Source: Bordetella parapertussis (GTDB taxonomy: Bacteria > Pseudomonadota > Gammaproteobacteria > Burkholderiales > SG8-41). Taken from it: a stretch of DNA of 48,990 nt. Position 1 is the stretch's first letter. The number at the start of each line of letters is the position of its first letter. This document shows positions 10,182 through 36,430 of this stretch, one piece after another. The position numbers were made by a program, and so were the translations under genes. The stretch spans positions 1-48,990 of the forward strand of contig CAMBCF010000025.1 in assembly GCA_945864585.1 (NCBI GenBank). Reading direction: 5' to 3'. A model generated the notes under the pieces. That model made no database searches. It saw nothing but the letters and a program-made list of their open reading frames with translations, and was not told where the DNA came from.

Positions 10182-10670
10182 TTAGCCTTGCGTCAGACCC
10201 AGTTCAAGCCAGTTGGCGGCGCGATACACACCGCCATGGAAACGCCGCGGATCGACAAAGGTTTCCAGCAACAGCAAGGGATGGCCGAAGCGTGTCTGCC
10301 AATCGGCCACTACCCAGCGTTCGATCAGCGATAGCACACGTGACCCAACATTCGGGCGGTGCCTTTCAGGCAGGATCAGAAAGCGGCTGTTGTTGGCGAT
10401 GAGCTTCAGACGCCCATACTGGGAGCGAAAGTCCCAGCCGATCCACCGATCACGCACGCCGCATTTCAGGGCCGCAGCCGATAGGCTCAATTGCGCCACC
10501 CAATGCTCGCGCCAGGTCGCGACATACCACGCCGTCTCGCCGATCTTCGGTAGCGCCCCAAGATAGTGATGGCGCGCCATCTGTTCTTGATAGCGGCCTT
10601 CTTCGCTACGTGCCACCGGGCGAACTTGGATCTTCGATAGTGCTTCGTTTGTGTATACCGCCGATTCCAT
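10182..10670 (-). pseudogene. DUF4338 / DruA-like protein, C-terminally truncated
   Basis: The 162-residue frame matches the conserved start and middle of DUF4338 proteins, the family of DruA of the Druantia anti-phage system and of proteins linked to some transposases. Segments include ARHHYLGALPKIGETAWYVA, GWDFRSQYGRLKLIANNSRFLI, LSLIERWVVADW and LETFVDPRRFHGGVYRAANW. It stops at TAA right after LELGLTQG, where relatives continue. No druB-E partners are nearby. I infer a truncated copy; whether it came from a defence island or a mobile element cannot be told. Confidence 0.65.
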
Positions 10671-12260: not shown

Positions 12261-12851
12261 TTACAGCACTTTGGCATCAAGCATGGCCTTGAAATCCGGA
12301 TCGAGTTTTGACAGATTTTCCGGGTCGTCCAAGCCAATCGCTATGTTCAATCGATTGCTGAAGTTGCGGTACGCCACCGAAGCAATGATGTCGAGAATAT
12401 TTTCATCATTGAATCCGGCCTGCCGCAACTGCTCGATGTCCGTACGGCACAGCAGATGCGGTGCATCATTGATCTTTTCGGCAAACGCCAGCATGACTTT
12501 GTCCTGCTCGGTGAGCACGGACCCCTTGTAATCCTTGCCGATCTGCACCACGTCCTGCTTTTCCAGGCCGGAAATTTGACGGAGCAACGCTCCGTGATTC
12601 ATCACTCATCCGGTGCAGCCGCCCGCCGTCGCACCAAAGAAATTCAGCAGTTCTTCGCGGTGCCTGCCCAGCGTTGTCGCGCCCCCTGTGGTCCCGTTGC
12701 GCAGCGTCTCCCGGCCCTTGAGTATTTCGGGACGAGTCGCCAGCACCCGGTGCAAGTTCGGCACCGAGCCGTTGCGGCTGCGGTATTGGTCGAACACCTC
12801 CTTGGCATAGCCCTGTGCCTCGTCATCGCTTACGGTTTTGAGCCACATCAT
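12261..12851 (-). CDS. AhpD-like / carboxymuconolactone-decarboxylase-family protein, predicted selenoprotein (CxxU)
   Basis: Read with the in-frame TGA at 12606-12608 as selenocysteine, one frame of 196 residues runs from ATG 12851 to the stop at 12261. The active site then reads C79-T-G-U82-V-M-N-H86-G-A-L-L-R, matching the AhpD CxxCxxxHHG motif position for position, with Sec replacing the second Cys. The upstream half (SVPNLHRVLATRPEIL, REELLNFFGATAGG) and the downstream half (LTEQDKVMLAFAEKIND, LRQAGFNDENILDIIASVAYRNF) belong to one peroxidase-related AhpD fold. A hairpin 10 nt past the UGA has a GUU loop (see SECIS entry). AhpD-family proteins are peroxidases or disulfide reductants. 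Sec here would make a highly reactive selenenyl-sulfide couple. The gene lies 85 bp after the ferredoxin gene. Alternative: a Cys-to-stop mutation. Confidence 0.86.
12579..12595 (-). promoter_or_regulatory. Candidate bacterial SECIS hairpin of the AhpD-like gene
   Basis: On the coding (minus) strand the sequence folds as ACGGAGC-GTT-GCTCCGT, a perfect 7-bp stem with a 3-nt loop. Counting U of UGA as 1, the loop is G21-U22-U23. Bacterial SECIS elements are stem-loops that start soon after the UGA and present G and U in the apical loop to SelB; in E. coli fdhF these are G23-U24. Stem, position and loop all fit. The hairpin lies within codons for HGALLR. Confidence 0.7.
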
Positions 12852-12903
12852 CTTAAAAAAACTCCCGGTTAGGATAAAGGGAAATTTATCTACGTAAGTA
12901 TTT

Positions 12904-12936: not shown

Positions 12937-13266
12937 TTATCGTGGTGCCGTACGAATGTATTGGGTCGTATCATTCTCGCTCCCGCCCGGCTTGCCGCGA
13001 TTCCAGCCCAGCGCCCGCGAATAACCGCCGAAAAACCCTGCGGCCTCGACCTCTGCTTCGCTGATGCCAGTGTGACCCTCCGCGCACGGCGCAACGTAAA
13101 GCGCATCCGTCGGGCAATAGATTTCACACATGAAACACGTCTGGCAATCCTCCTGCCGCGCGATGACGGGCGCCTGCTTGCGCACCGGGTCAAACACGTT
13201 TGCTGGGCACACCCTGACGCAAATGTCACACTCGATACAGCGGGACGTGGAGACGATTTCAATCAT
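12937..13266 (-). CDS. Ferredoxin with two [4Fe-4S] clusters
   Basis: A 109-residue iron-sulfur protein. Cysteines fall at 10, 13, 16, 20 (CIECDICVRVCP) and 41, 44, 47, 51 (CQTCFMCEIYCP), two canonical CxxCxxCxxxCP motifs for two [4Fe-4S] clusters. A 45-residue tail follows with no further cysteine pattern. It starts 12 bp after the stop of the FAD flavoprotein. Such pairs resemble the AprA/AprB or fumarate-reductase arrangement, in which the ferredoxin-like subunit passes electrons to or from the flavin. It is likely the electron-transfer partner of that flavoprotein. Confidence 0.9.
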   Translation of the reverse strand: MIEIVSTSRCIECDICVRVCPANVFDPVRKQAPVIARQEDCQTCFMCEIYCPTDALYVAPCAEGHTGISEAEVEAAGFFGGYSRALGWNRGKPGGSENDTTQYIRTAPR

Positions 13267-13278
13267 TAGGCTAGTATA

Positions 13279-14892
13279 TCAAGCTGGCGCCGTGTCCGCG
13301 ATGGCGCATCGTTTGACTTCAATGTGATCAAGGCCCGTTGCCTCAAACGCGCAGACGAATTGCGGATCTGTCGCGGGCAGATCAACCCGGCGCTGCATGC
13401 CGCGGCTTTCAGCACGCGCCAGTCCGCTGGCAAAGGCCCAGCGGCTGCTGGCTACAAGCGCCGCCGCTTCACGCGTTTTGACCGCATCCGCACCGCTACC
13501 CGACAGATGGTCGCGCACATCACACCACGCGCGGTCGAATTTCGCCAGCGATTTGCGCAAGGTGGTTTCGTTGCGATAAAAATTGTGATCGATCGGCAGG
13601 AACTCGTCGCGTACGATTTGAACAGCCTCGGCGGCACGCACGTCAGGGCGCGCAACTTTGGCCGGACGCAGCCCCACACGTCCCATCGCAACGACGTTAC
13701 GCTCTGCCATGTTGCCGCCTTCGCGCGCGGCGTAGCGGGCCGCAGCAGTGCCAGCCCAGTTGCCAGAGGCGATGGCCCACGACGAATTCGGCCCGCCACC
13801 GCCGGTGATCGCGCCGGTCACGCGCTCGCGGCTCGCTACATCGCCGGCCGCATACAGCCCCGGCACGCCGGTCGAACAGTCGTCCGCCACCAGCTTGATT
13901 CCACCGACACCCCGCACGGTGCCTTCACAGCGCAACATCACCTCAAACTTTTGCGTAAACGGATCAATGCCGGCGCGGTCGTGGGGCAGAAAACAATTCG
14001 GCTGGCCTTGCCGCAGCCAACTGTTCAACTCTGGTATGCCTTTGTCGAAACGTCCCCACACCGGTCCTTGTAGCAGCGCCTTGGCCACCGGCGCGAAGCG
14101 CTCCTGGTTGGCAGTGTCGATCCGCGTGCCGTCCTCATGGTAATAGCTGGCCCATGCAAAGGGCACGCCCTTGCTCAGCGAAGTATTTTTCGGGGTGCAA
14201 GCGTACTGCGCGGAAAATTCCATGCCCGAGAGCGTCGCGCCAGCTTCCGCCGCCATCAAATAGCCATCACCGGTGAGCCCGGTCGCGCCGAGCATGCGCT
14301 CACCGAAGGCGCATCCCCCGCTGGCAAGCACCACCGCGCCAGCCCGCACGGACCACGACCGGTTACGCTGGCGGTCAACGCCAGCGGCGCCGGCGATCAC
14401 CCCCGACTCGCTCAGCAATTCCAGCGCGGGGTGGTGGTCGAGAATAGCAACTCCCCCACGCAACACGCGTCGCCGCATGAAAGCCATATAGTCGGGACCG
14501 CGCAGATTGGTGAGGTAGGGTTTGCCCGAATCATCGTTGGGAAATTTGTAGCCCCACTCGGCGAGCGTATGCAAGCCTTGCCACGCACGATGCAACGTGC
14601 GATCAACCCAGCGCGGGATAGCCAAGCCACCGTTTAATTTCTGCCGACGTTCAATCGCGGCCTCGCGTCCGACCCCTGGCGGCACGAACCACGTTCCGGT
14701 ATTCGACGGGGCGGTTGCTCCACTAGTGCCAAGATAACCCTTGTCCACAACAACAACCCTCGCGCCCTCGGACGTTGCAGCAAGCGCCGCCCATGAGGCA
14801 GCCGGTCCGCCTCCGATGACCAACACGTCGGCGACAAGGTCAAGCCGATCCGCACGCCGTTGCGCCTGCACCGATTGTCGAAGTGTCGTCAT
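13279..14892 (-). CDS. FAD-dependent oxidoreductase, fumarate reductase/AprA-like flavoprotein
   Basis: A 537-residue flavoprotein with an N-terminal FAD-binding Rossmann motif (DVLVIGGGPAASWAA at 22-36, acidic D50 at the end of strand 2), an ASGG segment near 190, ATGLTGDGYLMAAEAGA, and a C-terminal GLYAAGDVASRERVTGA with the typical GD that binds FAD. The order matches succinate dehydrogenase/fumarate reductase and adenylylsulfate reductase alpha subunits. No signal peptide is seen, so it is probably cytoplasmic. It is followed by the two-cluster ferredoxin and then the AhpD-like selenoprotein candidate, all on the minus strand. The substrate is unknown. Start ATG 14892 has a GTGAG-like site. 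Confidence 0.85.
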   Translation of the reverse strand: MTTLRQSVQAQRRADRLDLVADVLVIGGGPAASWAALAATSEGARVVVVDKGYLGTSGATAPSNTGTWFVPPGVGREAAIERRQKLNGGLAIPRWVDRTLHRAWQGLHTLAEWGYKFPNDDSGKPYLTNLRGPDYMAFMRRRVLRGGVAILDHHPALELLSESGVIAGAAGVDRQRNRSWSVRAGAVVLASGGCAFGERMLGATGLTGDGYLMAAEAGATLSGMEFSAQYACTPKNTSLSKGVPFAWASYYHEDGTRIDTANQERFAPVAKALLQGPVWGRFDKGIPELNSWLRQGQPNCFLPHDRAGIDPFTQKFEVMLRCEGTVRGVGGIKLVADDCSTGVPGLYAAGDVASRERVTGAITGGGGPNSSWAIASGNWAGTAAARYAAREGGNMAERNVVAMGRVGLRPAKVARPDVRAAEAVQIVRDEFLPIDHNFYRNETTLRKSLAKFDRAWCDVRDHLSGSGADAVKTREAAALVASSRWAFASGLARAESRGMQRRVDLPATDPQFVCAFEATGLDHIEVKRCAIADTAPA

Positions 14893-34724: not shown

Positions 34725-34741
34725 TCAGCAAGGAGGAATCG

Positions 34742-36430
34742 ATGTCAACGTATGAAGTTGTGTATCCGCTGGGACAGCGTGCGCCCCAGCGCAAGGCGCG
34801 GGCCGTGCGTCCGAACTCATTGGACGGGCTCACCATCGCAGAGCTCTCCAACCACAAGTTCGACAGCGAGTTCACGTTCGAAGTGATCGAGAAGGCGCTG
34901 CTCAAGCGCTTTCCGAACATCAAATTCGTGTCGCACCGGGAATTCGGCGATACCTACGGTGCGCGCGAATCGGAAGTCATCAAAGCATTGCCGCAGAGGC
35001 TCGAGGCGTTCGAATGCGATCTCGTGATCTCCGGCACAGCAGGGTGAGGGAGCTGCACGGCCGCGAGTTCGCGCGCCAGTATCGCAGCGGAAAATGCCGG
35101 CATTCCGACCGTCACCATCGCCATAGACGAAGGCTTCACCAAGTCGGCGCAGGCGATCGGCAAACAGGCCGGCGTCGACCTGCGCGTGGCGACCTACCCT
35201 GGCGTGATTTCGACGCACGACCGCCCGACGGTGGTGAAAAATATCGAAGAGGTGCTGGTTGACCAGATCGTGCGCCAGCTCACGGCGCAGGAAGCGCCGG
35301 CGCAAGCAGCAGCCGATAGCGTGGCGCCGGACGAGCGCGAGATTGTCTTCAAAGGCACTTTCGAGGAGGTCAACGAGCACTTTCAGCGCAACCAGTGGAG
35401 CGACGGACTGCCGATCGTTCCGCCCACGATAGAAAAAATCGAAGCGTTCCTCAGTCACACCGACCGCGCGCCCGGCGAGGTGCTCGGGACCATGCAACCG
35501 AGCCAGGCTGAAGCGACCCTCTGGAATGTCGCGGTCAACGGCGTGATGGCGGGGTGCCGTCCCGAATACATGCCGGTGCTGGTTGCCATCGTCGAAGTCA
35601 TGTGCGATCCCGAGTACGGCATGAAGCACGGCGGCAGCACGCCAGGCTGGGAAGCGATGATCATATTGAACGGCCCGATTCGCGAGCAGCTCGGGTTCGA
35701 CGACAAGCAGGGCGCGCAACGCCCGGGCAACCAGGCCAATACCAGCATCGGCCGCTTCTACCGGCTGTTCGCGAGGAACGTCCCGCGCTTTCTGCCGGGG
35801 ACGACCGACATGGCGACATTCGGTCAGATGTTTCGCGCGGTCGTCGCCGAGAACGACCAGGCGTGTGTCGAAATGGGGTGGAAGCCGCTGCACGTCACCC
35901 GCGGCTTCAAGCCCGAAGACAGTGTCGTGACAATTACGTCGGTGAGGACCTCGAGCGACCCGTTCACCACCGCGGGAGAATCGGCAGCGCGTCACCTCGA
36001 TCTGATCGTCGACTGGGTCAAGCGCATGATCGAGCCGTACCAGAGTTCGCGCGGCTACATCGAGTCGCACGTGCTGCTGCTGACGCCGGTGATCGCTGCG
36101 ATACTCGCGAAAGCGGGCTACTCCAAGCGTGACGTTTCGGAACACCTCAAGCAGCACGCCACGGTGTCCGCGCGCTACTATGAATGGCACATGATGCTCG
36201 CCGATCACCATACGCCCGGGACCACGCTCGCGGGCCTGGTCGAGAAGGGCGAACTTCCCGCCGTATGGCGCCTCGCCGACGATCCCGAGCGTCTCGTCCC
36301 GCTGATGTTGCCGCAAACGCAGTGGCTGATCGTCGTCGCCGGCGACCCGCTGAGAAACCGCTCGTCGATCTACCGGCAGAACTTCAAGCAGGGCTACGCC
36401 ACGAGCAAGAAAATCCAGTTGCCAAAGTGA
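34742..36430 (+). CDS. UGSC-motif protein with C-terminal extension, predicted selenoprotein
   Basis: One plus-strand frame of 563 codons is interrupted only by TGA at 35045-35047. Reading it as selenocysteine gives ECDLVISGTAG-U102-G-S-C105-TAASSRASIAAEN, that is, the U-G-S-C motif of the UGSC (seleno)protein family, in which the first residue is Sec or Cys. A SECIS-like hairpin follows at once. Residues 1-195 form the UGSC domain, with IPTVTIAIDEGFTKSAQ. Residues about 200-562 are a second domain (FQRNQWSDGLPIVPPT, VAVNGVMAGCRPEYMPVLVAI, GRFYRLFARNVPRFLPG) with no fold I recognise. The ATG at 34742 has an excellent AAGGAGG site. It ends the catabolic cluster. Alternative: two separate genes or a nonsense mutation, judged unlikely because the motif and 460 downstream codons are intact. 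Confidence 0.88.
35059..35077 (+). promoter_or_regulatory. Candidate bacterial SECIS hairpin of the UGSC gene
   Basis: Just after the UGA the mRNA can fold as GGC-CGCG-AGTT-CGCG-C-GCC: seven base pairs with one bulged C and a four-base AGUU loop. Counting U of UGA as 1, the loop holds G23 and U24, exactly the positions of the SelB-recognised G23-U24 in E. coli fdhF. Position, stem and loop fit a bacterial SECIS. Confidence 0.7.

Follow-up and report, generated by a model that had tools for sequence, protein, structure and literature searches.

The gene studied here lies on the minus strand at positions 12261-12851 of the window, that is, the whole stretch of 48,990 nucleotides that was analyzed. 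It consisted of a single frame of 196 codons closed by a TAA stop, whose sole interruption was the TGA at 12606-12608 (codon 82), which we read as selenocysteine (Sec), the second redox residue of a CxxU motif. The original prediction started from two same-frame minus-strand ORFs separated only by this TGA, and both their coordinates and their frame were confirmed. Joined across the TGA, they gave the motif CTGUVMNHGA, in the wider context GGCTGUVMNHGALLR. A ribosome-binding site (GGGAG) was located at 12862-12866 (-), 10 nt 5' of the ATG, and its GGAG core was present upstream of the start codon in the seven close copies of the gene described below. In the NCBIfam search, residues 3-174 matched TIGR01926 (peroxidase-related, AhpD-like) with an E-value of 6e-32 and 110.9 bits, above the cut-off of 81.8, in agreement with the AhpD-like family initially proposed. 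The match to the YciW-related (seleno)protein family NF053654 was weak (1.1e-11; 44.8 bits, the cut-off being 310), and the Pfam search gave no match for the whole protein or for either of its halves. Elsewhere in the window, four genes for TctC-type substrate-binding proteins were clustered on both strands between 5317 and 12094, and a 162-aa piece at 10182-10670 (-), perhaps truncated, matched DruA (PF14236, profile positions 51-219 of 297).

A phmmer search of the PDB returned eight distinct sequences. The best five (6k40, 3c1l, 2prr, 2pfx, and 2oyo), with E-values from 3e-17 to 6e-14 (2.8e-17 for 6k40), are AhpD-like structures with Cys that matched over most of the length with equal active-site spacing, and on this likeness the protein would adopt the all-helical AhpD fold. 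The claim that the joined motif overlays the AhpD CxxC motif held in both 6k40 and 3c1l, in which U82 aligned with the second Cys and His86-Gly-Ala was retained; these two structures differ in having Cys for Sec and Tyr for Gly81. The spacings of the active site were 12 residues between Glu67 and Cys79, three between Cys79 and Sec82, and four between Sec82 and His86, so the CxxU redox pair is accompanied by a Glu at -12 and a His at +4, as in TIGR01926-type proteins. All four residues were retained in the seven copies. In the AhpD of M. tuberculosis the relay is formed by Glu118-Cys130-Cys133-His137 with His132 as a fifth residue, and a P. aeruginosa protein has Tyr at the His132 place (both in the available part of PMC3141380). 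Gly81 occupied this place in 7/7 copies, which separates the protein from the M. tuberculosis type of AhpD, while Tyr was found there in 44 of the 45 Cys homologues.

Close copies of the gene were found in seven genomes of two GTDB families (its own genome included). Codon 82 was TGA in all of them, and identity to the window's copy ranged from 81 to 97% in the other six. Within the GTDB family of the window, 6 of 74 genomes (again including its own) carried a copy with one TGA each, the other five being 85-97% identical, and all six belonged to one genus of 14 genomes; no close copy was seen in the other eight genomes of that genus, some of which are incomplete. When 84,980 species, each represented by one genome, were scanned with a pattern, 48 stretches were returned, four of which were relatives at 86-97%. 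A sample of 399 genomes from the order contained one more copy, with 81% identity, in G210, a member of another family in which one of four genomes had it, and 369 genomes sampled from the class yielded no additional close copy. It must be noted that the G210 assembly is of draft quality, its contamination being estimated at 5%, and that in the tree its copy falls within the genus, together with that of G066; this copy may therefore stem from transfer or contamination. The other matches listed in the family, class and order searches showed 19-36% identity. Neither the 74 family, 369 class, 399 order and 4 G210-family genomes nor the 84,980-species pattern scan revealed a member of this clade with Cys. 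In 15 pairs from the first six copies, dN/dS ranged from 0.017 to 0.145 before the TGA and from 0.036 to 0.116 after it, and purifying selection acts on both sides of the TGA in the six copies measured.

Just 3' of the TGA there was a SECIS-like hairpin (12579-12595, minus strand), with a perfect stem (ACGGAGC/GCUCCGU, from 12595 to 12579) and a GUU loop whose first base, a G, is the 18th past the TGA. The 7-bp stem with a GUU loop that had been placed at the SECIS position was found where expected, and it was present in 7/7 copies, although its energy alone was ordinary. A hairpin 3' of the TGA with a G in a small apical loop is the arrangement of bacterial selenoproteins, and such a G is described for selenoprotein hairpins in the available part of PMC1088965. 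In G066, a change from A to G in the stem kept the pairing as a G-U wobble, and in G063 six of the seven stem pairs formed in the lowest-energy fold. Compared with dinucleotide shuffles of the 54-nt stretch, the energy of the hairpin gave a z of -1.09, with 30 of 200 shuffles equally stable; in synonymous resampling, 1644 of 20000 sequences were as stable as the window hairpin; and, of 564 windows taken along the gene, 16 reached its energy, six of them on the hairpin itself. The stability of the hairpin is by itself unremarkable, and its weight rests on conservation. Within codons 83-92, which contain the stem, 3 of 9 invariant degenerate codons showed synonymous variation; elsewhere in the gene (codons 1-81 and 93-195) the count was 111 of 140 (p = 0.0056 by the Fisher test, for a region picked from the hairpin and few sequences, six and related). 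Among 185 ten-codon windows, the one starting at codon 82 had the least synonymous change (2/8). An Rfam scan of the whole window at the gathering threshold gave no match.

The comparison with more distant homologues was based on 70 aligned loci, one match per locus and a subset of all matches, the query row (a repeat of L014) being uncounted. The column of U82 contained Cys in 45 loci, Sec in 19, Ser in four and Gly in two. Thus, the expectation that relatives would carry Cys or Sec at this place held in 64/70 loci and failed in the six with Ser or Gly, all of them distant. The in-frame UGA is conserved and stands opposite the Cys of homologues, as in bacterial selenoproteins, and these counts support the suggestion that Sec would replace the second redox Cys. 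The 19 Sec loci comprised the seven close copies and 12 members of a group with a CxYUTEHN motif. This second group of AhpD-like Sec proteins (L024, L029-L032, L035, L036, L038-L040, L042, and L043) belongs to the same GTDB family, has a GGUC loop at +22 in 12/12 members and shows Asn in both the Glu and the His columns of the alignment. The own genome's two matches from the family-wide search fell outside this group, and its other TIGR01926 protein above the cut-off (L101/L118, G000:C6:6219-6737) is without both redox Cys (NGSKFGGPAH). The two Sec groups formed separate clades in the 70-row tree; given its midpoint root and the meeting of long branches, we make no claim that Sec arose independently in them. 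When stems were scored in these loci, with the six Ser/Gly loci left out, a stem of at least 6 bp with a loop in the searched range was present in 19/19 TGA homologues versus 9/45 Cys homologues, the loop of the former being GUU at +18 in seven and GGUC at +22 in 12. Against this distinction counts the Cys homologue L041, with a longer stem (9 bp) and a G-first loop at +22. Moreover, the two sets were not separable by energy, as their mean folding energies were -11.6 (TGA) and -12.1 (Cys).

The machinery for Sec, whose presence had been put forward as a check, was complete in the genome. SelA (C7:34663-36009), SelB (C7:36193-38076, above the cut-off), and tRNA-Sec (C7:39231-39321, 74.5 bits; called by ARAGORN as tRNA-SeC with anticodon tca) lie on one contig, and SelD, on C41, itself had one in-frame TGA in the context HGGGUGCK; the four together are what is found in genomes encoding bacterial selenoproteins. 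SelA was present in 18/18 genomes tested from two genera, with or without the AhpD-like gene. The window scan for TGA near Cys gave 28 rows for 25 sites, two of which were taken up by inspection, namely the AhpD-like gene and a second selenoprotein candidate at 34739-36430 (+), with a TGA at 35045-35047 within a UGSC motif. The latter matched the UGSC-family domain NF041046 below its cut-off (3.1e-15), and a long C-terminal part follows in frame. In its genome NF041046 was matched at 18 places with one in-frame TGA each, four of them above the cut-off and one in the window, which is a large Sec paralogue set for one genome. The TGA fell within the UGSC motif in the five loci read (G000, L112-L116) as well as in the window's own.

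Directly upstream of the AhpD-like gene, and on the same strand, there is a gene for a 4Fe-4S ferredoxin of 109 aa (12937-13266, Pfam Fer4 families), preceded by one for a FAD flavoprotein of 537 aa (13279-14892), fumarate-reductase/AprA-like (Pfam FAD_binding_2, 2.8e-19). The original prediction was silent on these neighbours. The same order was observed in 7/7 genomes, with 12 nt between the flavoprotein gene and that of the 109-aa ferredoxin and 31-168 nt between the latter and the AhpD-like gene. Since this arrangement is kept in all of them, we infer that the three genes are co-transcribed as one operon. The NCBIfam matches of the flavoprotein were to fumarate reductase, succinate dehydrogenase, aspartate oxidase, and AprA, all below the cut-off among the 25 of 43 listed. 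In the PDB, both genes matched the subunits of 8a8o (PAPS reductase alpha/beta), which we take to be a pair of an AprAB-like flavoprotein and a small 4Fe-4S protein. The relation is distant, with E-values of 1.2e-8 for the flavoprotein, which is nearer to fumarate reductase (3p4p, 6.6e-10), and of 1.2e-5 for the ferredoxin, which many other PDB entries match better. The flavoprotein was found (E up to 1e-80) in 11 of the 399 order genomes, namely five of the seven and six others at 47-52%; those of G066 and G069 were absent among the matches listed, yet present at the locus. At the six distant loci a matching ferredoxin lay within the fetched region in 6/6, while none of these regions, of 8.5-15 kb each, contained an AhpD-like match with an E-value of 1e-3 or less. 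NMT1-type ABC transporter genes were near three of them (G322, G121, and G190); the neighbours scanned were 10 proteins from four loci, two of these proteins being without a match. The flavoprotein gene ended in TGA in 7/7 genomes, and in all of them the ATG of the ferredoxin is in frame, four codons past that TGA (window 13267-13281, minus strand). A read-through fusion of the two proteins was considered and rejected, as a TAA comes right after the TGA in 2/7, for which reason the latter is taken as an ordinary stop.

In attention to the above indicated, the gene very probably encodes a small redox enzyme with Sec at its active site. Comparison of homologous sequences gives strong support to a predicted Sec insertion at UGA 82, which would be decoded by SelB and tRNA-Sec with the aid of the hairpin just 3'. 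Cys79 and Sec82 would then alternate between the thiol/selenolate and the selenenylsulfide states, with a Glu67/His86 relay assisting the cycle, and the protein would probably reduce organic hydroperoxides or hand electrons to a peroxidase. The electrons would possibly be supplied by the flavoprotein and the ferredoxin encoded directly upstream, a donor guessed from gene order; the chemistry, the substrate (peroxide or disulfide), the donor, and the Cys79-Sec82 cycle are all proposed by inference. We are highly confident in the overall reading, which is that of an AhpD-type thiol/selenol oxidoreductase with Sec82, hairpin-aided decoding, a redox cycle, a hydroperoxide or peroxidase role and electrons possibly from its neighbours. 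Much more speculative, and in our opinion rather unlikely, is a three-part unit in which the AprA-like flavoprotein and the 4Fe-4S ferredoxin feed the Sec-dependent AhpD protein, ferredoxin and flavin replacing the usual donors, and in which the selenoprotein, perhaps an obligate subunit, may have joined an older flavoprotein-ferredoxin pair on a single occasion.

Other readings were also considered. The one that survives best accepts a selenoprotein but makes it a scaffold, or a metal- or selenium-binding subunit, of the flavoprotein-ferredoxin pair and not a peroxidase-type enzyme; gene order kept in 7/7, Gly81 in place of the relay His132 and the lack of any AhpC-type family in a scan of 10 neighbouring proteins of the window speak for it, the retention of the four active-site residues in every copy speaks against it, and we regard it as rather unlikely. 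It would also be conceivable that an 81-aa protein ends at the TGA and a second one restarts at the GTG-ATG immediately behind it. However, the CxxC active site would then be split, both halves are in one frame in the 45 Cys homologues, synonymous change is low under the stem and the genome has the Sec machinery, all of which makes a restart very improbable. Even less credit is given to a true stop in a pseudogene or to a sequencing error, which would explain the broken frame and the lack of Pfam matches, as the TGA is identical in seven genomes, falls exactly at the redox-Cys column and is flanked by sequence under purifying selection in the six copies measured. Finally, the frame would be open under any code that reads TGA, but its decoding as Trp or by non-specific suppression is hardly credible, given that TGA is also the stop of the flavoprotein gene (7/7, with TAA behind in 2/7), that Cys, Ser or Gly, and never Trp, stands at the site in the 51 loci (of 70) that lack the TGA, and that a tRNA-Sec with anticodon TCA is encoded in the genome.

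A Sec-containing AhpD-type redox enzyme is of a kind already known. As the original prediction had stated, AhpD-like selenoproteins have been reported: an "AhpD-like protein, TIGR01926, CxxU" is among the selenoprotein families in the available text of PMC13188914, and CxxU AhpD-like proteins of COG2128 appear in those of PMC1088965, PMC2398784, and PMC9312934. Prx-like genes beside AhpD-like selenoprotein genes are described in the accessible parts of PMC2398784 and PMC13188914. In a 2006 survey (PMC1794560, available in part), FdhA was the sole selenoprotein in the covered Sec-decoding Alphaproteobacteria, Betaproteobacteria, and Pseudomonadales, and the deep-Sep paper (PMC12013277) mentions neither AhpD nor CMD, Betaproteobacteria or Burkholderiales. 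The proteins studied here share with the published ones the NCBIfam family, the CxxU motif and the G in the apical loop of the hairpin. They differ in forming a separate clade (19-36% identity to the outside homologues listed in the genome searches), in the Gly before Sec and in their conserved flavoprotein-ferredoxin neighbours. Among the matches listed in a literature search covering titles, abstract openings and few subscription journals, no flavoprotein-ferredoxin operon with an AhpD-like selenoprotein was found.

From a practical point of view, gene callers that treat TGA as a stop only would truncate or split this AhpD-like gene. The present analysis adds to the family a clade known only in its Sec form within the searches made and accompanied by conserved redox neighbours, which give a testable electron donor, and it points to betaproteobacteria rich in selenoproteins.
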